DNA of 64,000 nt from Mumia quercus (lineage in GTDB: Bacteria > Actinomycetota > Actinomycetes > Propionibacteriales > Nocardioidaceae). Below are positions 4,459 to 34,620 of this stretch, one piece after another (positions within the stretch are counted from its first letter, which is position 1; every line of letters begins with the position of its first letter). The notes under the pieces were generated by a model. It was not told where the DNA came from. It did no database searches and saw only the letters and a list, made by a program, of their open reading frames with translations. Where the stretch lies: contig NZ_JANZYO010000003.1 in NCBI RefSeq assembly GCF_025506335.1, positions 248,001 through 312,000 on the forward strand, in the 5' to 3' direction. The position numbers and the translations under genes were made by a program.

Positions 4459-5711
4459 GCGAGTTCTTCGGCAACGAGCCCTGGTGGGTCGTCCTCATCA
4501 AGGCCCTGCTCATCTTCGTGGTGCTGGTCGTCTTCACGCTGTTCAACATCTGGTTCGAGCGCCGGGTCGTGGCCCGGATGCAGCACCGGGTCGGCCCCAA
4601 CGTGTGGGGTCCGTTCGGGCTGCTGCAGAGCCTCGCGGACGGTGTCAAGCTCGCGCTCAAGGAAGAGATCTTCCCCAAGAACGCCCACAAGGTCGTGTAC
4701 TTCCTCGCGCCGGTGATCGCGACCGTCCCGGCGTTCCTCGCCTGGGCGGTGATCCCGTTCGGACCCGAGGTGACGATCCCGTTCACCGACACGCAGACGC
4801 CGCTGCAGCTGACCGACATGCCGGTCGCGGTGCTCTACATCCTCGCCGTCACCTCGATCGGCGTGTACGGCATCGTGCTCGGCGGCTGGGCCTCCGGCTC
4901 CACGTACGCGCTGCTCGGCGGCGTCCGCTCCTCGGCGCAGATGATCTCGTACGAGGTCGCGATGGGGCTCTCGCTCGTCACGGTCTTCATCTACGCCGGC
5001 TCGATGTCGACGTCGGAGATCGTGGCGGCGCAGGCCGAGGACGGCTGGTTCGCGCTGCCGCTCCTGCCGTCGTTCATCATCTACATGATCGCCATGGTCG
5101 GAGAGACCAACCGTGCGCCGTTCGACCTCCCGGAGGCCGAGGGCGAGCTCGTCGGCGGCTTCCACACCGAGTACTCCTCGCTGAAGTTCGCGCTCTTCTT
5201 CCTCGCCGAGTACATCAACATGGTCACGGTCTCGGCGCTCGCGACGACGATGTTCCTCGGCGGCTGGCGTGCGCCGTGGGGCATCTCGCAGATCGAGGGC
5301 GCCAACGAGGGGTACTGGCCGGTGCTGTGGTTCCTCGGCAAGACCCTGCTCTTCATCTTCGTCTTCATCTGGCTGCGTGGCTCGCTCCCGCGGATGCGCT
5401 ACGACCAGTTCATGAAGTTCGGCTGGAAGGTCCTGATCCCGGTCTCGCTCGCGTGGATCGTTGTGGTCTGCGTGATGCGCCGCCTCATCACCGACGGTGA
5501 CCTCGACCCGACGATGATCCTCATCGTCGCCGGGGTGGTCGTCGCGGCCCTGCTGGTCGTCCAGTTCCTGCCCGAGCGCCGCGCACCCGAGGAGCCCGAG
5601 CCCTCGCGCGACGCGTTCGCGGGCGGATTCCCCGTACCCCCGATGCCGGGTGAGCAGCCGCCCACCACGACCGCTGTGCCCGCGGGCACGCGCGGCGAGA
5701 AGGAGGACTGA
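4455..5711 (+). CDS. nuoH: NADH-quinone oxidoreductase subunit H
   Basis: Membrane subunit at the junction with the peripheral arm, lining the quinone chamber. It starts at GTG 4455 overlapping the nuoG stop and is 418 aa, with about eight or nine hydrophobic segments. Conserved stretches include [15 protein letters not shown], the [11 protein letters not shown] loop and [19 protein letters not shown]. The last 50 residues are a Pro/Glu/Ala-rich cytoplasmic extension ([14 protein letters not shown] region) that the second NuoH copy in this window lacks. nuoI starts 5 nt after the stop. Confidence 0.97.
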
Positions 5712-5716
5712 TCGCG

Positions 5717-6277
5717 ATGGCGACGCTGAAGGAGCAGCTCTGGGACCCGATCGCCGGCTTCGGCGTGACGTTCCGGACGATGTTCAAGAAGCCGGTCACC
5801 GTGCAGTACCCGTTCGAGAAGCGGCCGACGGCGCCGCGCTTCCACGGCCGGCACCAGCTCAACCGGTGGCCGGACGGGCTCGAGAAGTGCATCGGGTGCG
5901 AGCTGTGCGCGTGGGCCTGCCCCGCGGACGCGATCCTCGTCGAGGGCGCGTCCAACACCGAGGACGAGCGCTTCTCCCCGGGCGAGCGGTACGGCCGCGT
6001 CTACCAGATCAACTACCTCCGCTGCATCCTGTGCGGACTGTGCATCGAGGCGTGCCCGACCCGCGCGCTGACGATGACCAACGAGTACGAGCTCGCCGAC
6101 GACAGCCGCGAGTCGTTGATCTACGAGAAGTCGGACCTCCTCGCCCCGCTGCTGCCGGGCATGGAGGCGCCGCCGCACCCGATGCGGCTCGGTGACACCG
6201 AGCGGGACTACTACCGCGGCGACGCCGCCGCCCGCGCGGTCGCCGACGGGTCCGCTGGGGCAGGAGGCGAGCGGTGA
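5717..6277 (+). CDS. nuoI: NADH-quinone oxidoreductase subunit I
   Basis: Ferredoxin-like 23-kDa subunit with clusters N6a and N6b, linking NuoG to NuoB. The protein is 186 aa from ATG 5717. Two 4Fe-4S motifs are complete: [12 protein letters not shown] and [12 protein letters not shown]. The N-terminal amphipathic segment ([20 protein letters not shown]) and the [16 protein letters not shown] stretch are typical of actinobacterial NuoI. Its stop overlaps the GTG start of nuoJ by 4 nt, keeping it inside the same translational unit. Confidence 0.97.
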
Positions 6278-7086
6278 CCGCCTTCTGGCTGCTGGCACCG
6301 ATCATGGTGCTGGCCGCGCTCGGTGTCGTGCTCGCGCGCAAGGCGGTGCACTCCGCGCTGCTGCTCGCGGTCGTGATGATCTGCCTGGCGATGATGTACG
6401 CGATGCAGGACGCCCCGTTCCTCTTCGCCGTGCAGATCATCGTCTACACCGGCGCGATCATGATGCTCTTCCTCTTCGTGCTGATGCTGGTCGGCGTCGA
6501 CAAGACCGACTCCCTCGTCGAGACGATCCGCGGCCAGCGCCTGGTCGCGGTCGGCGTCGGGGTGCTGTTCGGCTTCCTCCTCGTGACCGTGGTCGCGCAG
6601 ACGACCGTCGGTCCCGTGATCGGGCTGGGCGAGGCCAATGCGGACGGGAACGTGCACGGCCTCGCCCGGCTCCTCTTCAACCGCTACGTGTTCGCCTTCG
6701 AGGCCACCAGCGCGCTGCTCATCACTGCGGCCCTCGGGGCGATGGTGCTGGCGCACCGCGAGCGGCTCGAGCCGAAGCGCTCGCAGCGCGACCTGGCGCT
6801 GGAGCGGATGCAGCGGTACGCCGAGCACGGCGAGCACCCCGGCAACCTGCCGACCCCGGGCGTGTACGCGCGGCACAACGCCGTCGACGTGCCGGCCCTG
6901 CTGCCGGACGGTTCGCCGGCGGAGTCGTCCACGTCGAAGACGCTGCGCGAGCGCGGGGTCGTCCGCGAGGGCGCCTTCCAGAACGACGTGGCCGTGACCT
7001 TGCGCAAGCTCGAGGCCGACGGCTCCCCGCGTGAGCGCGGCGTGATCGAGACCGGCCGGTCCAACGGAGCGGAGGAGGACCAGTGA
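6274..7086 (+). CDS. nuoJ: NADH-quinone oxidoreductase subunit J
   Basis: Small membrane subunit next to NuoK and NuoA. It starts at GTG 6274 overlapping the nuoI stop. At 270 aa it is longer than the usual 170-200 because of a hydrophilic C-terminal tail of about 100 residues after the fifth transmembrane segment. The tail is Arg/Glu-rich and contains [20 protein letters not shown], a feature I associate with actinobacterial NuoJ. The membrane part carries the conserved [19 protein letters not shown] segment. The second NuoJ (29090-29593) lacks this tail. Confidence 0.96.
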
Positions 7087-7382
7087 GCGTCGAGCCCTTC
7101 ATCGGGCTGTCCGCCCTGCTGTTCACGATCGGCGCCGTCGGCGTCCTCGTGCGGCGCAACGCGATCGTCGTGTTCATGTGCGTCGAGCTGATGCTCAACG
7201 CCTGCAACCTCGCGTTCGTCACCTTCGCGCGGGCGCACGGCAACCTCGACGGCCAGGTCGCCGCCTTCTTCGTGATGGTGGTCGCTGCGGCCGAGGTCGT
7301 GGTCGGCCTCGCGATCATCGTGTCGATCTTCCGTACCCGTCGCTCGGCCTCGGTCGACGACGCCAGTCTGCTGAAGCTTTAG
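7083..7382 (+). CDS. nuoK: NADH-quinone oxidoreductase subunit K
   Basis: Antiporter-related small membrane subunit (MrpC-like) of 99 aa with three transmembrane segments. It starts at GTG 7083 overlapping the nuoJ stop. The family signature [14 protein letters not shown] carries the conserved membrane Glu, and the second Glu sits in [11 protein letters not shown]. An 11-nt gap with a purine-rich ribosome binding site follows before nuoL. Confidence 0.97.
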
Positions 7383-7393
7383 AGGGGGCGGGA

Positions 7394-9349
7394 ATGACGA
7401 GTCTCTCCAGCGTCGTGCTGGCGGCGAGCGAGCACGCCGAGGTCGTGCCGGTCGCTGCCGACGGCGTGTTCTCGTGGGTGTGGCTGGTGGTCGCGATCCC
7501 CGCGGTCAGCGCAGCGATCCTCCTGATCGGGGACGGGGCGGGCGACCACGGGCCGTTGGACCGCTTCGGGCACCTGCTCGGCACGGCCGCGTCGATCGCC
7601 TCGTTCGTCGTCGGCCTGGTCGCTTTCATCGCCCTCCTCGGACGTGACGCAGCGGAGCGTGCGATCACCCAGGACCTGTGGACCTGGATCCAGGTCGGCG
7701 GGTTCGACGTCACGATGAGCGTCTACTACGACCAGCTCGCGGCCCTGTTCGTCCTGCTGATCACCGGCGTCGGCTCCCTGATCCACGTCTACTCGATCGG
7801 CTACATGGCAGACGACCCGCGAAAGCGGCGCTTCTTCGGGTTCCTCAACCTGTTCGTCGCCGCGATGCTCGTGCTCGTCCTCGCCGGCGACTACCTCGTG
7901 CTGTTCCTCGGCTGGGAGGGCGTGGGTCTCGCTTCGTACCTGCTCATCGGGTTCTGGCAGGAGAAGCGCTCCGCGGCGGTGGCGGCCAAGAAGGCGTTCA
8001 TCGTCAACCGCGTCGGTGACCTCGGGCTCGCGCTCGGCATCATGCTGATGTTCGCGCAGTTCGGGACGACCAACATCCATGAGGTCGGCCTCAACGTCGC
8101 GAACGCGAGCCAGTCCGTCGCGACGGCCCTCGGCCTCCTGCTCCTCCTGGGCGCCTGCGGCAAGTCGGCGCAGGTCCCGCTCCAGAGCTGGCTCCTCGAC
8201 GCGATGGAGGGCCCGACCCCGGTCTCTGCCCTCATCCACGCGGCGACGATGGTCACTGCGGGCGTCTACCTCGTGGTCCGCTCGGCCGCGATCTACGACC
8301 TGTCCGAGGTCGCCCGTACGGCGGTGATGATCGTCGGTGCCGTGACGCTGCTGTTCGGTGCCTGGATCGGCTGCGCGAAGGACGACATCAAGAAGGCGCT
8401 GGCCGGCTCGACGATGAGCCAGATCGGCTACATGATGCTCGCCGCGGGCCTCGGCCCGGCCGGCTACGCGTTCGCGATCTTCCACCTGATCACGCACGGA
8501 TTCTTCAAGGCCAACATGTTCCTCGGCGCCGGCTCGGTCATGCACGGCATGAACGACGACGTGGACATGCGCCACTACGGCGCGCTGCGCAAGGTGATGC
8601 CGGTGACGTTCGTGACGTTCGCGATGGGATACCTCGCGATCATCGGGTTCCCCGGCTTCTCCGGGTTCTTCTCGAAGGACAAGATCATCGAGTCGGCGTT
8701 CGCGACGAACTTCTGGGCCGGCCTGGCCGCCCTGCTCGGCGCCGGCGTCACCGCGTTCTACATGACGCGCGTGATGATCCTGACCTTCTTCGGCGAGAAG
8801 CGCTGGCGCGACGACGTCCACCCGCACGAGTCGCCGAAGATCATGACGGTCCCGCTGATCGTGCTCGCCGCGCTCTCGGTGGGTGGTGGTGCGCTCCTGT
8901 TCTCGAGCTGGATCACCGACTGGCTGGCGCCGGTGACGGGGGAGGAGCACCACGAGCTCCCCGTCCCCGCGATCGTGATCACCGCGATCATCGTGCTGGT
9001 CGTCGCCGCCGGCGTCGCCCTCGCGTACGTGCTCTTCGCCCGGCGTGAGGTGCCCGACACCGCACCTCAGAACGTCTCGGTCTTCACCCGCGCCGGCCGT
9101 GCCGACCTGTACGGCGACGCGGTCAACGAAGCGCTGTTCATGCGGCCCGGCCAGTACCTCACCCGGTCGCTGGTCTACGTCGACGGCAGCGGGATCGACG
9201 GCGCGGTCAACGGCACGGCCGAGCTCGTCGGTGACGGTGCACGCGGGCTGCGCCGGCTCCAGACCGGATTCGTCCGGACGTACGCCGCCGAGATCTTCGG
9301 CGGGTCCCTCGTCCTCGTCCTGGCCCTCCTGGCGGTGAACCTCGCGTGA
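7394..9349 (+). CDS. nuoL: NADH-quinone oxidoreductase subunit L
   Basis: Distal proton-pumping, antiporter-like subunit of complex I. The start is ATG 7394 after a GGGGGCGGGA ribosome binding site; in-frame sequence upstream belongs to nuoK. The protein is 651 aa with about 16 membrane segments. Key pieces are [16 protein letters not shown] (the proton-channel Glu), [20 protein letters not shown] and the broken-helix Lys/His region [12 protein letters not shown]. The C-terminal part contains the lateral helix and a final transmembrane anchor. The stop overlaps the GTG start of nuoM. Confidence 0.97.
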
Positions 9350-10893
9350 ACGACATCTCCTTTCCCTGGCTGACCGTCCTCCTGGTCGTCCCCCTCGTCG
9401 GTGCGGCGGTGGTCGCGCTCCTGCCGCGCAGCCGCCCCGAGATGGCGAAGTGGTCGGCGCTCGGAGTGTCCCTCCTGACGCTGGCGATCTCGCTGGCGGT
9501 CCTCTCGCAGTACGACCTCGACGGCTCGGGCTACCAGCTCGGCGAGGAGCACGCGTGGATCGCGCCGCTGGGGGTGTTCTACTCCCTCGGCGTCGACGGC
9601 ATCGGGCTGACGCTCGTCCTGATGACGACGATCCTCGTGCCGATCGTGATCGTCGCGGGCTGGAACGACGCCGACGGCGCCCGCTGGAGCGTCAAGACGT
9701 TCTTCGCGCTGATGCTCGCGCTCGAGGGTCTCGTGCTCGGCGTCTTCATGGCGACCGACGTCTTCCTCTTCTACGTCCTGTTCGAGGCGGCCCTCGTCCC
9801 CGCGTACTTCCTCATCGGAGGCTTCGGGGGCGCACGGCGCTCCTACGCGGCGCTGAAGTTCCTCATGTTCTCCCTCGCCGGCGGCCTGCTCATGCTGGCC
9901 TCGGTGATCGGCATGTGGGTCATCTCCAGCAGCCAGGGCGACCCGTCGTTCCTGCTCGCGGACATGAAGGACCTCTCGGTCGGGACGGTCGAGGGCCGGT
10001 GGCTCTTCATGGGCTTCTTCCTCGCCTTCGCGGTGAAGGCCCCGATGGTGCCGCTGCACACCTGGCTCCCCGACGCCGCGTCGGCGGCCACGCCCGGCAC
10101 CTCCGTCCTGCTGGTCAGCGTCCTCGACAAGCTCGGCACGTTCGGCATGATCCGCTTCTGCCTGGGCCTGTTCCCCGAGGCCTCGCAGTGGGCCAGCCCG
10201 GTCGTCATCACGCTCGCGGTCGTGAGCATCCTGTACGGCGCGCTGCTCGCGATCGGCCAGGACCACATGATGCGCCTGATCGCGTTCACCTCGGTGTCGC
10301 ACTTCGGCTTCATCGTGCTCGGGATCTTCGCGCTGACCTCGCAGTCGGCGTCGGGCTCGACGTTCTACATGTTCAACCACGGGCTGTCCACGGCCGCACT
10401 GTTCCTCATCGCCGGGTTCCTGATCCAGCGGCGAGGCTCGGCTCGGATCTCCGACTTCGGCGGAGTGCAGAAGATCGCCCCGATCACCGCGGGCCTCTTC
10501 CTCATCGCCGGCCTGGCCTCGCTCTCGCTGCCGGGCCTGTCGACGTTCGTCGGAGAGTTCCTGGTGCTGGCGGGCACGTTCACGGTCTCGACGACGGCGG
10601 CGGTGTTCGCCACGCTGGGCATCGTCTTGGCCGCGCTGTACATCCTCCTCATGTACCAGCGGACCATGACGGGCCCGCTGCGTGACGACAACCGCGCGAT
10701 CACCGACATGGTGCCCCGCGAGATCATCGCGATCGCGCCCGTGGTGGTGCTGCTCATCGGGTTCGGTCTCTTCCCGCAGCCGATCCTCGACGTGGTCAAC
10801 CCGGCCGTGTCGGAGACGCTCGACCACGTCCAGGTCAGCGACCCCGAGCCTCAGACACCGTCCTTCCCGACCGCTGAGGGGAGCTCGAAGTGA
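9346..10893 (+). CDS. nuoM: NADH-quinone oxidoreductase subunit M
   Basis: Second antiporter-like pump subunit, 515 aa, from GTG 9346. The [20 protein letters not shown] segment carries the conserved Glu, and [20 protein letters not shown] the family signature. About 14 hydrophobic segments are apparent. It lies between nuoL and nuoN with 4-nt overlaps on both sides, as expected for the A-to-N operon. Confidence 0.97.
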
Positions 10894-12506
10894 GCGCCGT
10901 GTCCGTTCTCGCCGCGCCGATGGCGCCGTCGCCGATCGACGCGCCGGACATCGACTACGCGACGATCTCGCCGCTGCTGATCGTCCTCGGCGTCGCCGTC
11001 GCCGGCGTCCTCGTCGAGGCCTTCGTGCCGCGGGCGTACCGCTTCGTCACCCAGGTGGTCGTCGCGGTCGTGGGTCTCGTCGCGGCGTTCGGTGCGACCG
11101 TGTGGGTCGCCACCGACCTCCCCGAGGTCGGAGGCGACGTGCCGGCACGCGGCGGCCCGACCGCGATGGGCGCGCTGAGCGTCGACGGGCCGGCCGTGTT
11201 CACGTGGGGCATGCTGCTGCTGTTCGGCGTCCTCGGCGTCCTGCTGTTCGCCGAGCGTCGCCTCGACGGAGGCCTGAGCGCGTTCACGAGCCAGGCGTCG
11301 ACCCCGCCGGGCAGCACCGACGAGCGTCGGGCGACCCAGCTGCGCATCGAGCACAGCGAGGTCTTCCCCCTGGCCGTCTTCGCGCTCGGCGGCATGATGT
11401 TCTTCGCCACGGCCAACGACCTCCTCGCCATGTTCGTGGCACTCGAGGTCCTGAGCCTCCCGCTCTACCTGATGTGCGGGCTCGCTCGTCGCCGTCGCCT
11501 CCTGAGCCAGGAGGCCGCGATGAAGTACTTCCTCCTGGGGGCGTTCTCCTCGGCGTTCTTCCTCTACGGCATCGCGCTCACGTACGGGTACGCGGGCTCG
11601 TTCGACCTGGGCGAGATCTCCACCGCCGTCTCGAACCGGATCGGCGGCGAGAACCTCCTCCTGGCGGGCATGGCACTGATCATGGTCGGGTTGCTCTTCA
11701 AGGTGGCGGCCGTGCCGTTCCACGCGTGGACGCCCGACGTCTACCAGGGCGCGCCGACCCCGGTGACCGCGTTCATGGCCGCCGGGACGAAGGCCGCGGC
11801 GTTCGTCGCGATGCTCCGGATCTTCTACGTGGCCTTCGACGGCGCCCGCTGGGACTGGACGCCGGTCGTCTGGGGCGTGGCGATCGTGACCATGCTGTTC
11901 GGCGCGGTCGTGTCGATCGCGCAGACCGACGTCAAGCGGATGCTGGCGTACTCGTCGATCGCCCACGCGGGCTTCGTGCTCGTGGGCCTGGCCGGTGTCG
12001 TCACGGGCACCGGGCTGACGAGCCTGTCGGCGATCCTCTTCTACCTCCTGGCGTACGGCGTCGCCGTCATCGGCGCGTTCGCGGTCGTCATGCTGGTCCG
12101 CGACGCGGGCGGCGAGACGACCCACCTCGGCAGGTGGGCGGGGCTCGGCAAGGAGTCGCCTCTCCTGGCGATCGCCTTCACGCTCTTCCTGCTGTCCTTC
12201 GCGGGCATCCCGCTGACCGGCGGCTTCATCAGCAAGTGGTCGGTGTTCGCGGCGGCCTGGGAGGGTGGCGCCTGGCCGCTCGTCGTGGTCGGTGTGGTGG
12301 CCTCGGCGATCGCGCTGTTCTTCTACGTCCGCGTGGTCGTGCTGCTGTTCTTCGCCGCCCCGCAGGGCGACGGTCCCACGGTCGCTGTGCCCAGTCCGTT
12401 GACCTCGTCGGTCGTGGTCGTCGCGGCGGCTGTCACAATCGTCCTGGGGGTTCTCCCCGGCCCGGTGCTCGAGCTCGTGCAGCAGGTCGGGGCGTTCGTC
12501 CGTTGA
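10890..12506 (+). CDS. nuoN: NADH-quinone oxidoreductase subunit N
   Basis: Third antiporter-like pump subunit, 538 aa, from GTG 10890 overlapping the nuoM stop. Diagnostic stretches are FVALEVLSLPLYLMCGLARR with the conserved Glu and KVAAVPFHAWTPDVYQGAPT with the conserved Lys. The loop between the second and third membrane segments is long and hydrophilic (TPPGSTDERRATQLRIEHSE region), as is usual in actinobacterial NuoN. It closes the complex I part of the operon; the next gene starts 30 nt later. Confidence 0.97.
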   Translation: MSAVSVLAAPMAPSPIDAPDIDYATISPLLIVLGVAVAGVLVEAFVPRAYRFVTQVVVAVVGLVAAFGATVWVATDLPEVGGDVPARGGPTAMGALSVDGPAVFTWGMLLLFGVLGVLLFAERRLDGGLSAFTSQASTPPGSTDERRATQLRIEHSEVFPLAVFALGGMMFFATANDLLAMFVALEVLSLPLYLMCGLARRRRLLSQEAAMKYFLLGAFSSAFFLYGIALTYGYAGSFDLGEISTAVSNRIGGENLLLAGMALIMVGLLFKVAAVPFHAWTPDVYQGAPTPVTAFMAAGTKAAAFVAMLRIFYVAFDGARWDWTPVVWGVAIVTMLFGAVVSIAQTDVKRMLAYSSIAHAGFVLVGLAGVVTGTGLTSLSAILFYLLAYGVAVIGAFAVVMLVRDAGGETTHLGRWAGLGKESPLLAIAFTLFLLSFAGIPLTGGFISKWSVFAAAWEGGAWPLVVVGVVASAIALFFYVRVVVLLFFAAPQGDGPTVAVPSPLTSSVVVVAAAVTIVLGVLPGPVLELVQQVGAFVR

Positions 12507-17290: not shown

Positions 17291-18363
17291 TCAGGCGATG
17301 GTCCAGGTGTCGCTGCCGGTGAGGAGCTTCTGGAGGTCGCCGGGGCCCTGCGCCTCGGCGGCTGCGGCGAGCTGTGCCCGCGCCTGGTCGTCGTACGTCG
17401 GCCGCTCGACCTGGCGGAAGATGCCGATCGGCGCGCGGTCGAGGTAACCGCCGTCGGTGAGGCGGCTGATCGCGAACGCGAGCGACGGGTCCTGGGCGTG
17501 GGCGTCGTGGACGAGGAGGGCGTCACGGTTCGTGTCGTCGACCTCCACCACAGAGACCGCGCCCGACGCGGGGTCGCGGACGAGACCGTGCTCGCCCTGG
17601 GGTCCGAAGGTGATCGGCTTGCCGTGCTCCAGCCGGATGACGGCGTGGTCCTTGGTCGCGGGGTCCTTGATCGCGTCGAACGCGCCGTCGTTGAAGATCG
17701 GGCAGTTCTGGTAGATCTCGACCAGCGCCGTGCCTCGGTGCGCCGCCGCCTGGCGCAGCACCTCCGTGAGGTGCTTGCGGTCGGTGTCGATGGTCCGCGC
17801 GACGAACGACGCCTCGGCGCCCAGCGCCAGGCTGATCGGGTTGAACGGCGTGTCGAGCGAGCCCATCGGCGTGGACTTGGTGACCTTGCCGGGCTCCGAC
17901 GTGGGGGAGTACTGGCCCTTGGTGAGGCCGTAGATCCGGTTGTTGAACAGCAGGATCGTCATGTTCACGTTGCGGCGCAGCGCGTGGATCAGGTGGTTGC
18001 CGCCGATGGAGAGCGCGTCTCCGTCGCCGGTCACGACCCACACCGACAGGTCCTCGCGCGACGTCGCGAGGCCGGTCGCGATCGCGGGCGCGCGGCCGTG
18101 GATCGAGTGCATGCCGTACGTGTCGAGGTAGTACGGGAAGCGCGACGAGCAGCCGATGCCGGAGACGAAGACGATGTTCTCGCGCTTGAGCCCGAGGTCG
18201 GGCAGGAACCCCTGGACGGCCTTCAGGACGGCGTAGTCGCCGCAACCGGGGCACCAGCGGACCTCCTGGTCGCTCGTGAAGTCCTTGCCGGTCTGCTTGA
18301 GGTCGGTGGACGGGATCCCCGCGAGGCCGTCGCGGGCCAGCGTGGGTGCGGGAAGGTCGATGC

Positions 18364-18367
<4 letters not shown>
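17291..18367 (-). CDS. korB: 2-oxoacid:ferredoxin oxidoreductase beta subunit
   Basis: Thiamine-diphosphate subunit of the CoA-dependent 2-oxoglutarate:ferredoxin oxidoreductase, 358 aa. The start ATG 18367 overlaps the korA stop (ATGA), so the two are translationally coupled. RWCPGCGDY near residue 38 carries 4Fe-4S ligands. The TPP-binding stretch is VTGDGDALSIGGNH (around residue 112) with LLFNNRIYGLTKGQYSPT following. Together with KorA it would reduce ferredoxin while oxidising 2-oxoglutarate to succinyl-CoA. Other 2-oxoacids cannot be excluded. Confidence 0.93.
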
Positions 18368-20262
<1,895 letters not shown>

Positions 20263-20297
20263 GGCTTGGCCCTTCTGTGCGTTGATGCGTTGAATCA

Positions 20298-25881: not shown

Positions 25882-26256
25882 ATGTCCGACTACGCCGACT
25901 ACCTCGCGTCGTACGCCTCGGTGGCCGCGATCCTGGTCGTCGGCGTGCTCGTCGCGGCCGGGATGCTGGGTGCCAACCGGCTCCTGCGACCCGTCGTCGC
26001 CGACCCGGCCAAGCTGCTGACGTACGAGTCCGGTGTCGACCCGGTCGGGTCAGGCTGGGCGCAGAGCAACGTGCGCTACTACGTCTACGCGTTCCTCTAC
26101 GTGATCTTCGCGGTCGACGCCGTCTTCCTCTTCCCCTGGGCGGTGGTCTTCGCCGCGATCGGGTGGCAGGCCGCCGTCGAGATGGCCGTCTTCCTCGGCT
26201 TCATCGCGGTCGGGCTGGTGTACGCCTGGCGCAAGGGGGTGCTCACATGGACGTGA
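25882..26256 (+). CDS. nuoA: Complex I subunit A, second copy
   Basis: 124 aa with three transmembrane segments. Typical NuoA stretches are [17 protein letters not shown] and [22 protein letters not shown] (quoted in part). The loop after the first helix contacts NuoD/NuoH in known complexes. It is the first gene of the second, ten-gene complex I operon. Its stop lies 10 nt inside nuoB2. Confidence 0.95.
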
Positions 26257-26852
26257 CCCGTCCGTCGGTCGACCTGGGGGTCCCGACGATCCAGCGTCTC
26301 GACGCTCCCGAGCTCGGCGTCGGGTCCGCGCTCGCGCCGCGCCCGGTCCGCTACCTCCTCAACTGGGGCCGTCGTTACTCCCTCTGGGTGTTCAACTTTG
26401 GCCTTGCCTGCTGCGCCATCGAGTTCATGGCGGCGTCGATGGCCCGGCACGACTTCATCCGTCTCGGGGTCATCCCCTTCGCGCCGGGCCCGCGCCAGGC
26501 CGACCTGATGATCGTCTCGGGCACGGTGACCGACAAGATGGCGCCCGCGATCGAGCGGCTGTACGCCCAGATGCCGGACCCGAAGTACGTCATCTCGTTC
26601 GGTTCTTGCGCGAACTCGGGCGGCCCCTACTGGGACTCCTACTGCGTCACCAAGGGCGTCGACCAGATCATCCCCGTCGACGTGTACGTGCCGGGGTGCC
26701 CGCCGCGCCCCGAGGCACTCCTGCAAGGGATCGTCACCCTCCAGGACAAGATCGCCGGCGAGGACCTCGCGCAGCGGTACGGGCGGACGGGGCTGCGCCG
26801 TTCGCTCTCCTCGCTCCTCCGCCCGCCCGTCACGCCTGAGCAGGACGGGTAG
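26247..26852 (+). CDS. nuoB: Complex I subunit B, second copy
   Basis: Carries terminal cluster N2 that reduces quinone. It is 201 aa from ATG 26247 (the longer in-frame opening upstream lies within nuoA2). All four cluster ligands are present: [10 protein letters not shown] (adjacent Cys pair), [10 protein letters not shown] and [11 protein letters not shown]. The chain from NuoI to quinone is therefore intact in this copy even though the NADH module genes are missing. Confidence 0.95.
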
Positions 26853-26857
26853 CCGGC

Positions 26858-27613
26858 GTGGGATGGGCCGAGGACGTCGCCGACCTCGGGCGCGCGGTCG
26901 CGGGAGACCGGGTCACGATGGCGCAGGAGTTCGGGCAGCACACGCTCACGGTTCCCGCGGGGTGGTGGCGACCGGTCGTGACCGCGCTCCGTGACCAGGG
27001 GCAGTGCCAGTTCTTCGACTGGCTCAGCGCGGTCGACGAGGCCGGTTCGCCGAGCCCGTACCCCGACGAGCCCGACCTCGCCGGCGGGCTGCGCGTGGTG
27101 TGCCACCTCGCGTCGCTCTCGCCCGGCGTCGGCCGCACGGCCGTGCGCCACCTCCTCGTCCAGACCCACGTGCCCCGTGCCGAGCCCGTCCTCGACTCGG
27201 TCGTCGACGTGTACGCGGGCGCGGCGTGGCACGAGCGCGAGACGCACGAGATGTTCGGCGTCGACTTCCGCGGCGGCGTGCCGCTGGAGACGTTGCTGCT
27301 TCCCGACGCCTTCGAGGGTCACCCGCTGCGCAAGGAGTTCGTGCTGGCGTCGCGGGTCGTGAAGGCCTGGCCCGGGGCGAAGGAGCCGGGGGAGTCCGAC
27401 CACGACGTCGCCGCCGCGGACTCCTCTCCCGGACGCCGTCGCATGCGTCCGCCGGGGGTGCCCGACGCCGAGCAGTGGGGTCCCCGCGAGCCGGGGTCGC
27501 CGGCCCCCGACCCGCTCGGCCACGCGACCGCCGGGCCAGCGGCGCGGCCCGCCCGTCCGCGGCGCAACCGGCGCGCCACACCGCCCGACAGCCCGCCGGA
27601 GGAGGGGACGTGA
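26858..27613 (+). CDS. nuoC: Complex I subunit C, second copy, with Pro-rich tail
   Basis: 30-kDa subunit, 251 aa from GTG 26858. The core (residues 1-165) shows [12 protein letters not shown] and [11 protein letters not shown], the family signature. The last 85 residues are Pro/Arg/Ala-rich, low complexity and unrelated to NuoD, so this is not a NuoCD fusion. In standard operons nuoD follows at this point; here the next gene is nuoH2, whose GTG overlaps this stop by 4 nt. There is therefore no space in which nuoD could hide. Confidence 0.92.
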
Positions 27614-28560
27614 TCGACGTCGTCGACCTCCTGCGCTGCCTGCTGGTGCTCGCGGCGTTCCTGGTGCTGCCGCTGGCCGTGGGTCAGCTCGAGCACAAGA
27701 CCATGGCGCACATGCAGTCGCGTGTCGGCCCGATGTACGCCGGCGGCTTCCACGGGTGGGCCCAGCTGGTCGCCGACGGCGTGAAGTTCGCGCAGAAGGA
27801 GGACGTGGTCCCGCGGGCCGCCGACCGTCCCGTCTTCGCGCTCGCGCCGGCGGTCGCCCTCGTGCCGTACCTGGTGGTCCTCTTCGTGATCCCGCTCGGC
27901 CCGAGCATGGTCGGCGCCGACCTCGACCTGGGACTCTTCTTCGCGCTGGCGGTGATGAGCGTCGGCGTCCTCGGGACGCTCATGGGCGGCTGGGCGAGCG
28001 CCAACAAGTACTCCCTCCTGGGCGGCCTGCGCACGGCGTCGCAGCTGATGAGCTACGAGCTGCCGATGGTCCTCGCCGCGGTCTCGGCGGCGATGATGGC
28101 GGGCTCCCTCTCGCTGGTCGCGATCGTGCAGGCCTGGGAGTGGTCGTGGCTCCTCTGGCAGCTGCCCGCGCTGTGCGTGTTCGTGGTGGCGGGGCTCGCC
28201 GAGCTGCAGCGGCCTCCGTTCGACATGCCGATCGCCGACGCCGAGGTGATCCTCGGCCCCTACACCGAGTACGGAGGCATGCGCTTCGCGATGTTCCTCC
28301 TCGCGGAGTACGCCGGCATCGTCGTGCTCGCGGCGCTCACGACGACCCTCTTCCTCGGCGGGTGGCGCGGCCCGTCCTCCGAGGAGCTGGGATGGTTGTG
28401 GGCCCTCCTCAAGACGTTCGCGGTGGCGTTCTGCGTGGTGTGGTTCCGGGTCGCGTGGCCGCGGCTGCGCGAGGACCAGCTCAACGCCCTCGCCTGGAAG
28501 CTGCTGGTGCCCGTCACGCTCGGGCAGCTGGCCCTGACGACGGTGGTGGTGCTCGCATGA
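27610..28560 (+). CDS. nuoH: Complex I subunit H, second copy
   Basis: Quinone-chamber membrane subunit, 316 aa from GTG 27610 overlapping the nuoC2 stop. Conserved parts are [30 protein letters not shown] and [19 protein letters not shown]. It lacks the hydrophilic C-terminal extension of the first NuoH (4455-5711). The gene directly follows nuoC2, with nuoD, E, F and G absent. Confidence 0.95.
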
Positions 28561-29093
28561 AGGGTCTCCTCAAGGGTCTGCGCGTCACGTGGCACAACCT
28601 CACCCGCCGTGCAGTGACCCAGCAGTATCCCGACGTCCTCCCGCAGCTGCCTCCGCGCAGCCGCGGAGTCATCGCGCTGCAGGAGGAGAACTGCACGTCC
28701 TGCATGCTGTGCGCGCGCGAGTGCCCCGCGTGGTGCATCTACATCGACTCGCACAAGGAGACGGCGCCGCCGGCGACCGAGGGCGGGCGCGAGCGGTCGT
28801 TCAACGTCCTCGACCGCTTCGACATCGACTACTCGTTGTGCATGTACTGCGGCATCTGTGTCGAGGTCTGCCCCTTCGACGCGCTGCACTGGTCGCCCGA
28901 GTTCGAGTACGCCGAGCTCGACATCCGCGACCTGACGCATGACAAGGACCGCCTCCGCGAGTGGATGTGGACCGTCCCGCCCCCTCAGCCGCTCGATCCC
29001 GCGGCCGAGCCGCCGAAGGAGATCGGGGTGGCGGAGAGGGCGGCCGAGCGTGAGGCAGCGAAGGCGCAGGATCCCCCGGAGCCTCCCGCATGA
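28557..29093 (+). CDS. nuoI: Complex I subunit I, second copy
   Basis: 178 aa from ATG 28557 (ATGA overlap with nuoH2). Both 4Fe-4S motifs are complete: [12 protein letters not shown] and [13 protein letters not shown] Pro/Ala/Glu-rich tail follows [15 protein letters not shown]. With the NADH module genes absent, these two clusters are the exposed entry point for electrons, where ferredoxin docks in chloroplast-type and methanogen-type complexes (family knowledge; docking here is inference). Confidence 0.95.
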
Positions 29094-29593
29094 CAGCCGT
29101 CACGGTGGTGTTCGCGGCCCTCGGTCTCGTCACGCTGGTGTCGGCCTTCCTGGTCGTCACCAGCGACCAGATCGTGCACGCGGCGCTCTGGCTGGTCGTG
29201 ACGCTGGGCGCCCTCGCCGCGCTGTACGTCCTGCTCGCCGCGGAGCTGGTGGCGTGGGTCCAGGTGCTCATCTACGTCGGCTCGGTCGTCGTCCTCCTGC
29301 TCTTCGCGCTGATGCTGACCCGGGCTCCGACCGGCAGCGGCTCCGCCACGGCGACGGCGAACCAGCCGCTGGCCGGCGTGGTCGCCGCGGCGGTGACCGT
29401 CGCGCTCGGTGCGGTGATGTGGGCCGGGTTCGGCGGAGAGGTGATCGACGAGGACGCCATCCGGATCGGCACCGCCGAGCGCCTCGGCGACGCGGTTTTC
29501 CGTACCTGGGTGCTGCCGTTCGAGGTCCTCTCGGTCGTGCTGCTCGCGGCGCTGGTCGGCGCCATCGTGCTCACGCGCAGGGGGGATCGCTGA
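29090..29593 (+). CDS. nuoJ: Complex I subunit J, second copy
   Basis: 167 aa, five transmembrane segments, from ATG 29090 (ATGA overlap). The [20 protein letters not shown] segment is the family signature. It ends right after the last membrane helix (LTRRGDR), without the roughly 100-residue tail of the first NuoJ. Confidence 0.94.
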
Positions 29594-29925
29594 TGCCCCT
29601 GATGCTCCCGTTGACCGTCTCCTGCGGACTGTTCGGTCTGGGCCTGTACGCGGTGCTGGCCCGCCGGCACGCCGTGATGGTGCTGCTGGGCGTCGAGCTG
29701 ATGCTGAACGCCGTCAACCTCAACCTGGTCGCCTTCGACACCTGGTGGGCCGACACGCTGCACACCGGCCAGTCGCTCACCCTGTTCGTGATCGCGCTCG
29801 CCGCCGCCGAGATCGGCCTGGGCCTCGCGATCGTGCTCGTGATGTTCCGTACGGTCGGCAGCGCCGACGTCGACGGGCAGGCACGTCTGCCCGACGTGCT
29901 CCCGGACGGGGGTGACGAGCTGTGA
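29593..29925 (+). CDS. nuoK: Complex I subunit K, second copy
   Basis: 110 aa with three transmembrane segments from ATG 29593 (TGATG overlap with nuoJ2). [20 protein letters not shown] carries the conserved membrane Glu and [17 protein letters not shown] the second. A 15-residue hydrophilic tail precedes the stop, which overlaps the nuoL2 GTG. Confidence 0.95.
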
Positions 29926-31691
29926 GGCGACGCGAGTCCGCGCCTGCCGTCGCGATCACGGCGCTGCTGGCGCTCTGCGCGGCGGTCGTCGCGTTCCCGC
30001 GGCTGGGGGAGCGCACCGGGCCGTACGGGGAGCCGGCCGGCATCCGTACGACGCTCGTCGACGGCGGCGACCTGCTCGGAGTGTCGGTGACGTTCTTCGT
30101 CGACCACCTCAGCGCGGTGATGCTGCTCCTCGCCGCCGGGGTCGGACTGCTGGTCCAGATCTACTCCGTCGCCTACCTGGCCGGCGACGCGCGCTACCGC
30201 GCATACACGACGATCATCCAGCTCTTCCTCGTCGCGATGGCCACGGTCGTTGTCGCCGACAACTTGTGGATGCTCCTGGTCGGCTGGGAGGTGATGGGCC
30301 TGTGCTCGTACCTGCTCATCAGCCACCACTGGGAGCTCGGGCCGGCGCGGGCGGGGGCGGTGAAGGCCTTCCTGCTGACCCGCATCGGCGACCTCGGCCT
30401 GCTGGTCGCGATCTTCGCGATCGGGCAGACCTTCGGCACGTACGAGATCAGCGAGGTCCTCAGCGCGATGGCGTCGCCGGACGCACCCGACGGGCTCACC
30501 TGGATCGGTCTGCTGCTGGTCCTCGCGGTCGTCGGCAAGTCCGCGCAGTTCCCGCTGCACACGTGGCTGGCCGACGCGATGCCGGGCCCGACGCCGATCA
30601 GCGCCCTCATCCACGCCGCGACGATGGTGGCGGCGGGCGTCTTCCTGGTCGCGCGGCTCTACCCGGTGCTCGCGGCCTCCGCGGTGACGATGACCGTGCT
30701 CGCGGTGATCGCGTGCGTGACGATGCTGCTGGCCGCGATGTTCGCGCTGACCTCCCACGACCTCAAGCGTGTGCTCGCGTGGTCGACGGTGAGCCAGCTG
30801 GCGTACATGTTCGCGGCGTTGTCGGTCGGCGGGTACGACGCCGGCATCGACCACCTGCTGTCCCACGGCGCGTTCAAGGCGCTGCTCTTCCTCGCGGCCG
30901 GGTCGGTCGCGCACGCGGTCGGGTCCACGGCGCTCGCAGAGCTGGGAGGCCTGCGCGCGGTGATGCCGTGGACCTTCGCCACCGCGACGATCGGGTTCGC
31001 CGCGCTCGCGGGCGTCGTGCCGACCGTCGGGTTCTTCAGCAAGGACGCGGTGATCGAGGCCGCGTGGCACGGGATCGGCCACGACGCGCCCGTCGCGCCG
31101 GTCGTCGCCGCGCTCGTGCTGGTGGTCGGGCTCGTCACCGCCGTCGTGACGGTCGCGTACGCGTTCCGGACCTGGTGGAAGGTGTTCTTCGCCGCAGATC
31201 CGGCGGCCGCGGCGAGGCTCGCCGAGGCGCGCAGCGCCACCGGTCGCTCGTACGAGGCGCCGCCGCTGATGGTCGGTCCGCTGGTCGTCCTCGCGGCAGC
31301 GAGCATCCTCCTGAGCCTCGCGATGCCGCTGCACCCGCTGACCGGCCTGGTGACCACGGTCCTGGTCGCCGCTGCCGGGTGGTTCACCTGGCAGACGATG
31401 GCCGCGGGCCGCGACCCGGCCGACCTGCTCGGGCCCGCCCGCCGCGCGTTCGACCGCGAGCTCGCGATGGACGTCGCGTACGACCGCGCGGGCACCGCCG
31501 CCCGGGGGGCGGGCGACGTCGTCGTCGCGACCGACCGCGACATCCTCGGGTTCTACCCGCGCGCGACGGCCTGGGTCGCGGTGACGCTCTCGAAGGGGTT
31601 CACCAAGGCGCAGTCCGGTAACGCCCAGACGTACGTCACCGTCCTCGCGGTCGGTGCGCTCCTCCTCGCAGGCCTGGTGGTGGTCCGGTGA
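29922..31691 (+). CDS. nuoL: Complex I subunit L, second copy
   Basis: Antiporter-like pump subunit, 589 aa from GTG 29922. Conserved pieces are [17 protein letters not shown] (channel Glu), [20 protein letters not shown] and [12 protein letters not shown]. The region after residue 500 keeps an amphipathic stretch and a final membrane helix ([18 protein letters not shown]), so the lateral helix is probably retained. All residues I can recognise as essential for pumping are in place. Confidence 0.95.
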
Positions 31692-33199
31692 ACGGCCTCG
31701 TCGTCGCGCTCGTCGTCCCCGCGCTCACCGCTGTGCTGCTGGGGGGCCTGCGGGGCATGGTGACCGACCGGGTCGCGGCGCGGGCCGGTGTGGCGGCCTC
31801 CGTGGTCTCGGGTGTCTTCATCCTGGCCGCCTGGCTGCTGCACGACGGCGGCGGCTACGCGGCCGAGATCGACGCCGTGTGGGTCCGGGTCCTCGGGCTG
31901 CACTTCCACCTCGGGATGGACGGAATCTCCTTCCCGCTGCTGCTGATGACGACCGTGCTCTCCGCCCTGGTCTGCTGGGCCCTCGTGGACGACCCGCCGG
32001 CGGGTGACAACGCCACACCCGCCCTGGTGGCGCTGATCATGGTGGTGCTCTCCGCGGCGCTCGGCGTCTTCGCGTCGCTCGACCTTCTCCTCTTCTTCGT
32101 GTTCTTCGAGCTGGCCCTGATCCCGATGTGGTTCGTGATCGCTCGGTGGGGCGATCCGCACGACCCGGTGGGCCGGCGCGTCGCCGCGACGCGCTTCCTG
32201 CTCTACACCGTCATCGGGTCCGCGTTCATGCTGGTCGGATTCGTCACGGTCTGGGCGTTGAGCGGCACGTTGCAGATCCCCGAGCTCGCCGCCCGCTCCG
32301 AGGTCCTCGACGGCGGGTGGGCGCTCTTCGCCGCCGCGATGATCGCCGTCGGCCTCGCGGTGAAGACGCCGATCTGGCCTTTCCACCTGTGGCTGCCCGA
32401 CGCCCACGCGAAGGCGCCGACGGTGGGCTCGGTGCTGCTGGCGGCGGTCTTCCTCAAGCTCGGGACGTACGGGCTCCTGCGGGTGCTCGTCTCGGTCCTC
32501 CCCGGGCCCGCCCGCGACCTGGCCCCGTGGCTGGGCGCCCTCGGCGTGATCGGGATCGTCCTCGCGGCACTCGCGTGTCTGCGGCAGAGCGACCTCAAGC
32601 GCCTCATCGCGTACTCGAGCGTCGGCCACATGGGCTTCGTCGTCCTCGGCATCGCGACCCTCACCGAGATCGGGGTGGCCGCCGCGGTGTTCGCCAGCGT
32701 CGCCCACGGTGTCGTGACGGGGCTGCTGTTCTTCAACGCCGGATCCCTCAAGCGGCGCTTCGGCAGCGCGGAGATGGCGGTGCTCGGGCGAGGCCTCTAC
32801 GCGCGGATGCCGGCGCTGGCCGTGGTGCTGGCGTTCGCCGCGTTCGCCAGCCTCGGACTTCCCGGCCTGGCGGGCTTCTGGGGAGAGATGATGGCGCTGC
32901 GCAGCGCGTACGAGTCGGCGGTGGACTCCGGTGCAGGGCTGGTCCCGGCCGTGGCGACCGTGCTGCTGGTGGCCGCGCTCGTCGGTGTGCTCCTGACCTC
33001 GGCGTACTTCCTCCGGCTCCTGCGGTGCACGCTCCAAGGCGTCCCCACCCCGCACGACGCAGACGTCGACCTCGTCGGCTCCGAGCGGGGGATCGCGGCT
33101 GTGCTCGTCGTCGCCGTGCTCCTCCTCGGGCTCGCGCCCGGCCTGGTGGTGGGGGTCGTGGAGCCGAGCATCCCCGCGATCCTGGGGAGTGCCCGATGA
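31688..33199 (+). CDS. nuoM: Complex I subunit M, second copy
   Basis: 503 aa pump subunit from GTG 31688 overlapping the nuoL2 stop. FFVFFELALIPMWFVIARWG carries the conserved Glu and KTPIWPFHLWLPDAHAKAPT the family Lys/His motif. About 14 hydrophobic segments are seen. The stop overlaps ATG of nuoN2. Confidence 0.95.
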   Translation: MNGLVVALVVPALTAVLLGGLRGMVTDRVAARAGVAASVVSGVFILAAWLLHDGGGYAAEIDAVWVRVLGLHFHLGMDGISFPLLLMTTVLSALVCWALVDDPPAGDNATPALVALIMVVLSAALGVFASLDLLLFFVFFELALIPMWFVIARWGDPHDPVGRRVAATRFLLYTVIGSAFMLVGFVTVWALSGTLQIPELAARSEVLDGGWALFAAAMIAVGLAVKTPIWPFHLWLPDAHAKAPTVGSVLLAAVFLKLGTYGLLRVLVSVLPGPARDLAPWLGALGVIGIVLAALACLRQSDLKRLIAYSSVGHMGFVVLGIATLTEIGVAAAVFASVAHGVVTGLLFFNAGSLKRRFGSAEMAVLGRGLYARMPALAVVLAFAAFASLGLPGLAGFWGEMMALRSAYESAVDSGAGLVPAVATVLLVAALVGVLLTSAYFLRLLRCTLQGVPTPHDADVDLVGSERGIAAVLVVAVLLLGLAPGLVVGVVEPSIPAILGSAR

Positions 33200-34620
33200 A
33201 CCCCGAGGCGGTGGACTGGGCATCGGTCGGCGTCCCGCTCCTGGTCGCGGTCGGCGCGATCGCGGCGCTCCTCGTGGACGCGTTCTGGCCCGGGGGAGGG
33301 TGGCGCCGTCAGGGCGTCGTCGCCGTCGCAGGGCTGGTCGCTGCCGGTGCCTGGCTGGCCGAGACGGGCTCGCACGGTCCGCTCGTCGCCGGCTTCTCGT
33401 GGGTGATCCTCGTCGCCGCTCTGGTCGTGGTGGTCCTCACCCAGTCGCTGGAGGACGACCCCGCGATGCCGCCGGGGGAGTCGACGTTCCTCCTGCTGTC
33501 GGCCACCGCGGGTGCGCTGACCCTCGCCGCGGCCCGGGACTTCGTCACCCTCGTCGTCGCGCTCGAGCTGCTCTCGCTGCCCTCCATCGCGCTCGTCGCC
33601 CTGCGCCGCGACCGGCGCGAGTCCGTGAGCGCGGCATGGACGTTCTTCCTCGCCTCGGCCACCGCGACCGCCGTCACGCTGATGGGGTTGTCGCTGCTCT
33701 ACGGCCTCACCGGCACGCTCACGTACGCCGGGGTCAACGAGGCGCTGCAGACGTCGGAGGCGCCCGTACGCGTGATGGCGGCCGTGGTCGTGATGGTCCT
33801 GGTCGGTCTGGTCTTCAAGGTGGGCGCCGTGCCGTTCCACCTGTGGATCCCCGACGCGTACCGCGGTGCGCCCATCCCCGTGGCGGCGTTCCTCTCGGTC
33901 GTCTCCAAGGGCGGTGCGCTCGCCGCGCTGCTGGTCGTGCTCGCGTACCCGCTGCTGCCGCTGCAGCCGCGGTGGGACGTCTTCGTGGCCGTCGTCGCCG
34001 GGTTGTCGATGACGCTCGGCAACATCGGCGCGCTGGTCCAGCGCGAGATGGTCGGGATGCTCGCCTGGTCCTCGATCGCCCAAGGTGGCTTCGTCGTGGC
34101 GCCGATGGTCGCGCTCGCCGTCCAGGCCGACCTCGTGCTGACGGCGCCGCTGCGCTACCTCGCCGTCTACGCGATGGCCAACCTGACCGTCTTCGCGGTC
34201 GCCGTCGTCGCCGCGCGCAGGTTCGGCGGCACGACGTACGCGCATCTCGCCGGCGTCGGGCGCCGCGACCCGCTCCTCGGCGCCGCGCTCGTCCTCGGGC
34301 TCCTCACCCTCGCGGGGTTCCCGCCGGCGGTGATCGGGCTCCTCGCGAAGTACCTCGTCCTCCAGCCGGTGGTCGTCGGAGGGTACGCGTGGCTGGCGGG
34401 CGTGATGGCGGTCAACGTCGCCCTGGGCCTCGTCTACTACCTGCGGCTGGTCGTCGTCGCGTACGCCCCGGCGGACCGGGTCGGCAACGGCGTGCCGCCG
34501 GTCACCAGCGTCCGCGAGGGCCGCGGAGCCCGGCTCGCGTACGCGGTGGTGGTCGTCGGCGCGGTCGCCCTCGCGGCGACCTCGGTCGCGCCGACGCTGC
34601 TGCTCGGGGCGCTGCCCTGA
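33196..34620 (+). CDS. nuoN: Complex I subunit N, second copy
   Basis: 474 aa, last gene of the second complex I operon, from ATG 33196. VVALELLSLPSIALVALRRD holds the conserved Glu and KVGAVPFHLWIPDAYRGAPI the family motif, with SVVSKGGALAALLVV following. It is shorter than the first NuoN because the long inter-helix loop is missing. rnhA follows after 29 nt with its own promoter. Confidence 0.95.
   Translation: MNPEAVDWASVGVPLLVAVGAIAALLVDAFWPGGGWRRQGVVAVAGLVAAGAWLAETGSHGPLVAGFSWVILVAALVVVVLTQSLEDDPAMPPGESTFLLLSATAGALTLAAARDFVTLVVALELLSLPSIALVALRRDRRESVSAAWTFFLASATATAVTLMGLSLLYGLTGTLTYAGVNEALQTSEAPVRVMAAVVVMVLVGLVFKVGAVPFHLWIPDAYRGAPIPVAAFLSVVSKGGALAALLVVLAYPLLPLQPRWDVFVAVVAGLSMTLGNIGALVQREMVGMLAWSSIAQGGFVVAPMVALAVQADLVLTAPLRYLAVYAMANLTVFAVAVVAARRFGGTTYAHLAGVGRRDPLLGAALVLGLLTLAGFPPAVIGLLAKYLVLQPVVVGGYAWLAGVMAVNVALGLVYYLRLVVVAYAPADRVGNGVPPVTSVREGRGARLAYAVVVVGAVALAATSVAPTLLLGALP

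Follow-up and report, generated by a model that had tools for sequence, protein, structure and literature searches.

A second nuo operon occurs in many actinobacteria, including Streptomyces, and it raises an annotation question: what kind of complex I it encodes and where its NuoD is to be found. We analysed this question in Mumia quercus, starting from a stretch of 64,000 nucleotides (contig NZ_JANZYO010000003.1, positions 248,001 to 312,000 of the forward strand), which we call the window. The ten-gene nuo2 operon lies at window positions 25882-34620 on the + strand in the order nuoA2, B2, C2, H2, I2, J2, K2, L2, M2, N2, and none of NuoD, E, F and G is encoded inside it. The original prediction, made from the sequence of the window, had regarded NuoD as missing and had proposed that the ten subunits either form a hybrid with NuoD1 of the first complex I operon or use an unknown partner. 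NuoD is absent from the operon, yet a NuoD-family search of the genome located a second gene, nuoD2 (408 amino acids (aa), G000:C7:95262-96488, minus strand), on the same contig; as nuoA2 begins at contig position 273882, the two are separated by 177 kb. With nuoD2, genes for A, B, C, D, H, I, J, K, L, M and N are all in the genome, and NuoD2 is almost certainly the partner of the ten Nuo2 subunits. The detached arrangement itself is not new, as nuoD2 has been described apart from the rest of the nuo2 genes in Streptomyces (PMC3765725, PMC8388888; these and the papers below are cited from excerpts), where the data of PMC3765725 suggest a single transcript for the nuo2 operon. What remains of interest is the gene company of nuoD2, the altered quinone site and a remnant linked to korAB.

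nuoD2 belongs with the nuo2 operon

A hybrid in which the ten Nuo2 subunits borrow NuoD1 would find its partner in the same genome, where the NuoD1 gene (G000:C7:246567-247820) lies just upstream of the window. However, NuoD1 is only 39% identical to NuoD2 over residues 31-333, the larger matched stretch, and carries Thr and Tyr at two marker positions where NuoD2 carries Arg and Trp. Among 30 relatives, NuoD2 (76-100% identity) was found in 20. NuoH2 (70-100% identity) was found in 19, every one of them among those 20, and the ten relatives outside that set have no NuoH2 at this level, so that all 19 relatives with NuoH2 also have NuoD2. The exception, G007, is an assembly of 520 contigs with NuoD2 and without a NuoH2 match, but its NuoB2, C2 and I2 are present. 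A class sample of 18 genomes contained NuoD2 in 11 and NuoH2 in 10.

At a threshold of E 1e-66, NuoD was matched in 125 of the 197 genomes of the phylum sample; many of the weaker matches are other kinds of NuoD. Within the 29 best new loci of this sample, nuoD2 is detached in 12 (10 of this class and two of family f17), and in the other 17 (L105-L121, from other actinobacterial classes) it sits between nuoC and nuoH in the same operon. The complete A-B-C-D-H-I-J-K-L-M-N order is visible in the longer stretches L204-L207, L214, L218, L219 and L222, and L208 starts at C. Because nuoD2 exists and has in-operon orthologues between nuoC and nuoH elsewhere, Nuo2 is a split eleven-subunit set. In a FastTree phylogeny of 190 NuoD rows, a branch with support 0.99 sets 157 Trp-type rows apart, another with support 1.0 sets apart 15 Thr-type rows, and NuoD2 clusters with the in-operon orthologues, apart from NuoD1. 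It is thus the second nuoD elsewhere, of matching phylogeny, that the original prediction had said would remove its puzzle, and neither a NuoD1 hybrid nor an unknown partner is needed. The hybrid was dropped on finding nuoD2 and the in-operon orthologues, and we consider it extremely improbable.

When the ten operon proteins were searched by tblastn against 80 NuoD2 loci, there was no match at any locus, which confirms that nuoD2 is detached. The departure of nuoD2 from the operon was long ago. In a quick tree without a mixture model, which carries a warning of long branches, among them the remnants described below, a single relocation for all detached rows was rejected (p 0.002) and a single relocation for this class and f17 was not (p 0.60), both values being weakened because the groups were picked after an earlier tree had been viewed. 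Since one clade of all detached rows was rejected, nuoD exited the operon at least two times, in this class, maybe jointly with f17, and in f16.

The neighbourhood of nuoD2 recurs, with four gene clusters each present in 26-45 of 80 loci (L011-L090). By motif we take these neighbours to resemble folK, folP, folE and ftsH. In G001, nuoD2 and the methyltransferase gene described below are doubled (C1, C8) with equal scores, perhaps because the stretch is duplicated or the assembly is at fault, and at G020:C1:3683086-3684277 the nuoD2 match is split across two frames, by a frameshift or a sequencing error.

Organization of the nuo2 operon

Each nuo2 gene shares 1-10 bases with the next, except that 5 bases separate nuoB2 from nuoC2, and this spacing excludes room for an additional gene, as had been foreseen. 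Start codons were assigned by reading the sequence (NuoB2 at 26247, NuoK2 at 29593), and every product scores above the curated cut-off of its Pfam family, with Fer4 models in the case of NuoI2. The genes are as follows.

25882..26256, + strand: nuoA2 (124 aa); PF00507, E 3.4e-32
26247..26852, + strand: nuoB2 (201 aa), four N2 ligand Cys present; PF01058, E 1.1e-29
26858..27613, + strand: nuoC2 (251 aa, GTG start); PF00329, E 6.5e-29
27610..28560, + strand: nuoH2 (316 aa), loop differs from the NuoH1 loop; PF00146, E 3.6e-100
28557..29093, + strand: nuoI2 (178 aa), two C..C..C...C motifs (N6a, N6b); Fer4 models, TIGR01971 match below its cut-off
29090..29593, + strand: nuoJ2 (167 aa); PF00499, E 3.6e-34
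29593..29925, + strand: nuoK2 (110 aa); PF00420, E 8.4e-24
29922..31691, + strand: nuoL2 (589 aa); PF00361, E 2.9e-65, and PF00662
31688..33199, + strand: nuoM2 (503 aa); PF00361, E 1.9e-69, and TIGR01972 above its cut-off
33196..34620, + strand: nuoN2 (474 aa); PF00361, E 1.3e-47

All four N2 cysteines of NuoB2 are present (C-C, G-S-C-A, P-G-C-P-P). In comparison with E. coli K-12, every tested residue of NuoL2, M2, N2, K2 and J2 is retained, and NuoH2 retains four of six, E216 being replaced by Ile208 and E218 by Asp210; the residues compared are those we take to be functionally important in E. coli NuoL, M, N, K, J and H. The expectation that the cysteines and pump residues are all kept therefore holds for N2, N6a, N6b and the antiporter subunits but does not extend to the entire NuoH2 loop. 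With the cluster cysteines and the tested antiporter residues intact, the operon shows no decay at the sequence level, again as predicted.

The search for NuoE and NuoG covered the window and 40 loci, and that for NuoF covered the whole genome, where the single NuoF-family match is located in the first operon:

24..12506, + strand: first complex I operon from nuoE1 onward, with nuoA1-D1 just upstream of the window

A second NADH module elsewhere was rejected on this single match. The absence of NuoE, F and G from the operon agrees with the original prediction, and Nuo2 very likely has no NADH module of its own.

A methyltransferase gene accompanies nuoD2

A METHYLTRANSFERASE, encoded by a PF02636 gene at G000:C7:101418-102335 (-), about 5 kb from nuoD2, accompanies NuoD2. 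Its PF02636 score is 76.4 bits (72.9 in the genome scan) against a gathering score of 23.3. PF02636 was found in 21 of the 30 relatives, namely all 20 with NuoD2 and G019, in which a diverged NuoD2 adjoins its PF02636 gene. In the class sample, NuoD2 and PF02636 occur in the identical 11 genomes, and neither occurs in the other seven. Of 80 NuoD2 loci from named genomes, 68 carry the methyltransferase gene no more than about 6 kb away from nuoD2, and several of the remaining 12 end early. Where nuoD2 is detached in f17, it lies within 7 kb in 7/8 genomes and on another contig in G132; in f16 it lies within 1 kb in 2/2. The f17 genome G051 has NuoH2 with neither a NuoD2-level match nor PF02636. 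In genomes with nuoD inside the operon, a methyltransferase-like gene stands directly 3' of nuoN on the same strand in L204, L205, L206, L208 and L218, and likewise next after nuoN, judged by position, in L207. Chance co-occurrence with nuoD2 was dropped after the counts in the 30 relatives, the class sample and the 80 loci.

NCBIfam did not name the methyltransferase. A profile built from 49 of these proteins matches PDB 4f3n, 1zkd and 5ztz, the last named as a Dictyostelium NDUFAF7 homologue. The fold was compared with the pdb library by Foldseek using the Aeromicrobium orthologue (L011) in place of the protein of the window genome; the predicted structure has a predicted local distance difference test (pLDDT) value of 94. 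Its top six matches are 4g67, 4f3n, 1zkd (two chains) and MidA 5zu0/5ztz, with template-modelling values on the query of 0.70-0.80, versus at most 0.43 for the other 44 among the matches listed. Judged by profile and predicted fold, the gene near nuoD2 belongs to the NDUFAF7/MidA methyltransferase family.

Human NDUFAF7 dimethylates Arg85 of NDUFS2 (PMC3829151), and this Arg lies within an HRGXE motif beside cluster N2, is Thr in Thermus and is dimethylated in Paracoccus (PMC8042128, PMC3750175). The corresponding Arg81 of NuoD2, in an HRG motif, is present in 118/118 rows (93 of this class, 17 in-operon and eight of f17), and 15/15 rows of the NuoD1 group carry Thr at that position, 14 of them fetched as NuoD1 and one, L146 (G118), placed there for its Thr. 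Considering the enzyme family and the conserved motif, Arg81 of NuoD2 is probably methylated. This would suggest that arginine methylation of complex I is not confined to the proteobacterial line, and the title of a structural paper on MidA speaks of proteobacterial origin.

Family f43 has additional PF02636 matches, two in G118 and six in G198. The G118 genes may have another substrate, because the only strong NuoD match of this genome is of the Thr/Tyr type.

The quinone site of Nuo2 is altered

Of the His and Tyr usual in the quinone site of NuoD, NuoD2 retains the His (His55), but the Tyr is replaced by Trp104. Trp occupies the Tyr position in 118/118 NuoD2 rows and in 39 of 57 further rows, and Tyr in 15/15 NuoD1 rows. 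The change is also visible against solved chains, the mitochondrial and Thermus NuoD having Tyr at this position (R-x-D-Y). The replaced Tyr is presumably the one that binds the quinone headgroup, Y144 in Yarrowia in the numbering we assume. Residue Y144 is discussed in PMC8042128. The sources used do not state this Tyr as a defining feature, and we therefore call Nuo2 a variant of the eleven-subunit class. It is a natural complex I in which Trp replaces a Tyr regarded as the binding residue for the quinone headgroup. As the cell also has an ordinary complex I, the pair offers a ready test of what that residue does.

The NuoH2 loop is altered as well. The first Glu of the NuoH1-type loop is replaced by Ile or Val in 36/36 NuoH2-type rows, which represent 32 distinct genes as four loci are repeated, and it is kept in the remaining three NuoH rows, from the first operons of the window and of L221 and from L215. 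Among the 40 loci, matches to NuoE, F and G were found in L215, which has an Arg/Tyr-type set, and in the first operon of L221 alone. Because the E/F/G matches fall in the same two Glu-type sets, the Trp and Ile/Val changes mark the class without an NADH module.

A pump-free remnant beside korAB in a sister family

Two further genes of the window bear on the electron donor.

17291..18367, - strand: korB-like, beta chain of a 2-oxoacid:ferredoxin oxidoreductase; PF02775 above cut-off, NCBIfam beta-chain models below their cut-offs (best E 1.5e-78)
18364..20277, - strand: korA-like, alpha chain, 5' end approximate; TIGR03710 above cut-off, PF01855, PF01558

They are located between both nuo operons, with transcription directed away from nuo2. 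Going by the name, the substrate of KorAB would be 2-oxoglutarate, and we infer that korAB is a possible source of reduced ferredoxin. Where nuoH2 and korA are on one contig, the two are head-to-head in 17/17 genomes.

A stronger pointer comes from a sister family, that of G019 and G022, of which 78 genomes were searched. No NuoH2 was found in them, every NuoH match having at most 45% identity to NuoH2, and there is one NuoH gene per genome, with a further weak match in G263. Of the 78, 37 carry a shortened NuoB2-like gene (G231 is unclear), by a hand count of matches that scored higher than NuoB1 does. In the 22 of these 37 loci that were read (L228, L229, L244-L263), the nuoB-C-I order is retained throughout, without a membrane arm. 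The remnant stands head-to-head with korA within 0.85 kb in 17 of the 22 and at 3.4 kb in one, and korA is outside the fetched stretch in four. In 22/22, NuoI retains its two cluster motifs and NuoB its Cys-Cys pair; the third NuoB Cys (G-x-C-A) is seen by eye in all, and the fourth is seen in 20, the other two matches ending before it. NuoD was examined in three genomes, G019, G022 and G027; a NuoD2-like gene is present in the first two and there is none in G027, which is also without a NuoB2-like gene. The NuoD of G019 and G022 retain Arg and Trp and are the only two of 190 rows without the quinone-site His. The remnant appears to be a soluble enzyme derived from complex I, stripped of pump and quinone site, with the wire retained beside KorAB. 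Of all the evidence gathered it points most clearly to KorAB, or to the ferredoxin reduced by KorAB, as the donor, a hint and not a proof.

These findings bear on where the electrons of Nuo2 come from. If Nuo2 were an NADH-driven isozyme that takes NuoEFG from the first operon, two complexes would share one NADH module. The single NuoF-family match fits such sharing, as does L221, where the first operon with E, F and G adjoins nuo2; a swapping of NuoL and NuoM has also been suggested for Streptomyces (PMC3765725). However, the E/F/G matches among the 40 loci are confined to the Arg/Tyr-type set of L215 and the first operon of L221, and the sister family retains NuoB-C-I beside korAB without a membrane arm, and we judge the isozyme unlikely.

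Alternatively, Nuo2 might run in reverse and spend proton motive force to pass electrons from quinol to ferredoxin, feeding a carboxylating KorAB or other ferredoxin users. The intact antiporter residues are compatible with this, and the altered quinone site could suit a different driving force. Direct evidence for reverse use is nevertheless absent, a pump-free remnant beside korAB could not run on proton motive force, and aerobic heterotrophy is expected for most of these organisms, so that the chance of reverse use appears small. Smaller still is the chance that Nuo2 works as an F420H2 dehydrogenase of the archaeal Fpo type, its FpoF-like input subunit being encoded elsewhere. Many actinobacteria produce F420, and Fpo models match several Nuo2 subunits, although all below cut-off; an FpoF-like gene is not in the nuo2 operon, and the genome was not searched for one.

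Ferredoxin seems a likely kind of donor for Nuo2, in agreement with the original prediction, whose picture of a complex I operon that is intact yet has no NADH module of its own also stands, while the absence of NuoD and the hybrid do not. The gene order hints at ferredoxin or KorAB, and for KorAB or its ferredoxin in particular we put the chances at even. korAB offers a genetic handle on what feeds such enzymes.

Proposed mechanism of Nuo2

On balance we lean, by a small degree, towards Nuo2 being a methylated, ferredoxin-fed eleven-subunit complex I without an NADH module, with ferredoxin or KorAB as the donor. The ten subunits from the nuo2 operon would assemble with NuoD2 from its gene 177 kb away, and the methyltransferase would dimethylate Arg81 of NuoD2, which may aid assembly and tune N2. 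NuoI2 would accept electrons from a low-potential ferredoxin or directly from KorAB and pass them through N6a/N6b to N2, and the reduction of menaquinone would drive proton pumping. A wider reading, which we offer tentatively and consider rather doubtful, is that these enzymes form a distinct actinobacterial class of complex I, with Trp for Tyr and Ile/Val for the NuoH Glu, its own NDUFAF7-type methyltransferase and a supply from KorAB, in which 2-oxoacid oxidation bypasses NADH; the sister family would then have shed the pump and kept a soluble NuoB-C-D-I wire that does not need the quinone site.

Several observations weigh against the methylated, ferredoxin-fed enzyme. Regarding methylation, the counterpart Arg of E. 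coli is unmethylated (PMC3750175). In a tally of PF02636 against NuoD type that covers 91 of the 125 NuoD-positive phylum-sample genomes, 53 of 73 Arg/Trp genomes have PF02636 and 20 do not, and because of these 20 the enzyme is not strictly required. Conversely, nine of 62 PF02636 genomes are not Arg/Trp (five Arg/Tyr, one Thr/Tyr and three absent from the table), so that PF02636 is found in 5/17 Arg/Tyr genomes and in the single Thr/Tyr genome as well. In G089, nuo2 is decaying (L230, G089:C1:444000-463000): nuoA2-B2-C2, nuoH2 as two short pieces and nuoI2 were found there, with no nuoJ-N match in this stretch, and the genome retains nuoD2 and the methyltransferase (L213) despite the broken nuoH2. 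Regarding the donor, korA has a match in 30/30 relatives, 11 of which gave no NuoH2 (G007 among them), and in seven of the ten genomes that have neither NuoD2 (at 76% or more) nor NuoH2 it lies within 30 kb of nuoH1. The presence of korA is therefore uninformative about nuo2, and korAB as a follower of nuo2 was rejected. The 17 genomes with head-to-head nuoH2 and korA are related, and their korA-nuoH2 gap ranges from 1.9 to 21 kb. Finally, because both NuoD checked in the sister family are without the quinone-site His, the role of the remnant may not reveal that of Nuo2.

Comparison with known systems

The eleven-subunit complex I of Desulfitobacterium hafniense (PMC11238625) is likewise without an NADH-oxidising module; Nuo2 differs from that type by its split-off nuoD, its NDUFAF7-type gene and its Trp and Ile/Val, residues that were read on the Nuo2 side only. 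NDUFAF7/MidA (5ztz; relatives 4g67, 4f3n and 1zkd) is matched by the methyltransferase in profile and fold, and NuoD2 has the HRG target motif. In contrast to that system, the gene here is near a paralogous nuoD, away from the main nuo operon, and its product is 16% identical to the Dictyostelium structure. The alpha and beta chains of KorAB, the 2-oxoglutarate:ferredoxin oxidoreductase of Mycobacterium tuberculosis (PMC2773412), appear to be of the same superfamily as the korA-like and korB-like products of the window, and the korAB of the sister family differs in being mostly head-to-head with the nuoB-C-I remnant. The titles and abstract starts among the matches listed contained no report of this head-to-head arrangement; those from the open-licence literature contained no link of nuoD2 to a methyltransferase, the Trp or korAB, and the excerpts of PMC12361115 and PMC4859585 contain nothing on this Nuo2 variant.

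Another close known system is the nuo2 of Streptomyces, which, like Nuo2 here, is a second operon without an NADH module whose nuoD2 lies outside. In their excerpts, the Streptomyces accounts mention neither a methyltransferase nor a change in the quinone site nor a connection to korAB, and they list A2, B2, D2 and H2-N2 (with nuoJ written differently in PMC8388888) and no C2. Unlike in these gene lists, nuoC2 is present both here and in a genome of the same class (L211). The C-terminal tail of NuoC2 (window 26858-27613) is Pro/Arg-rich and extends about 85 residues past the family domain.

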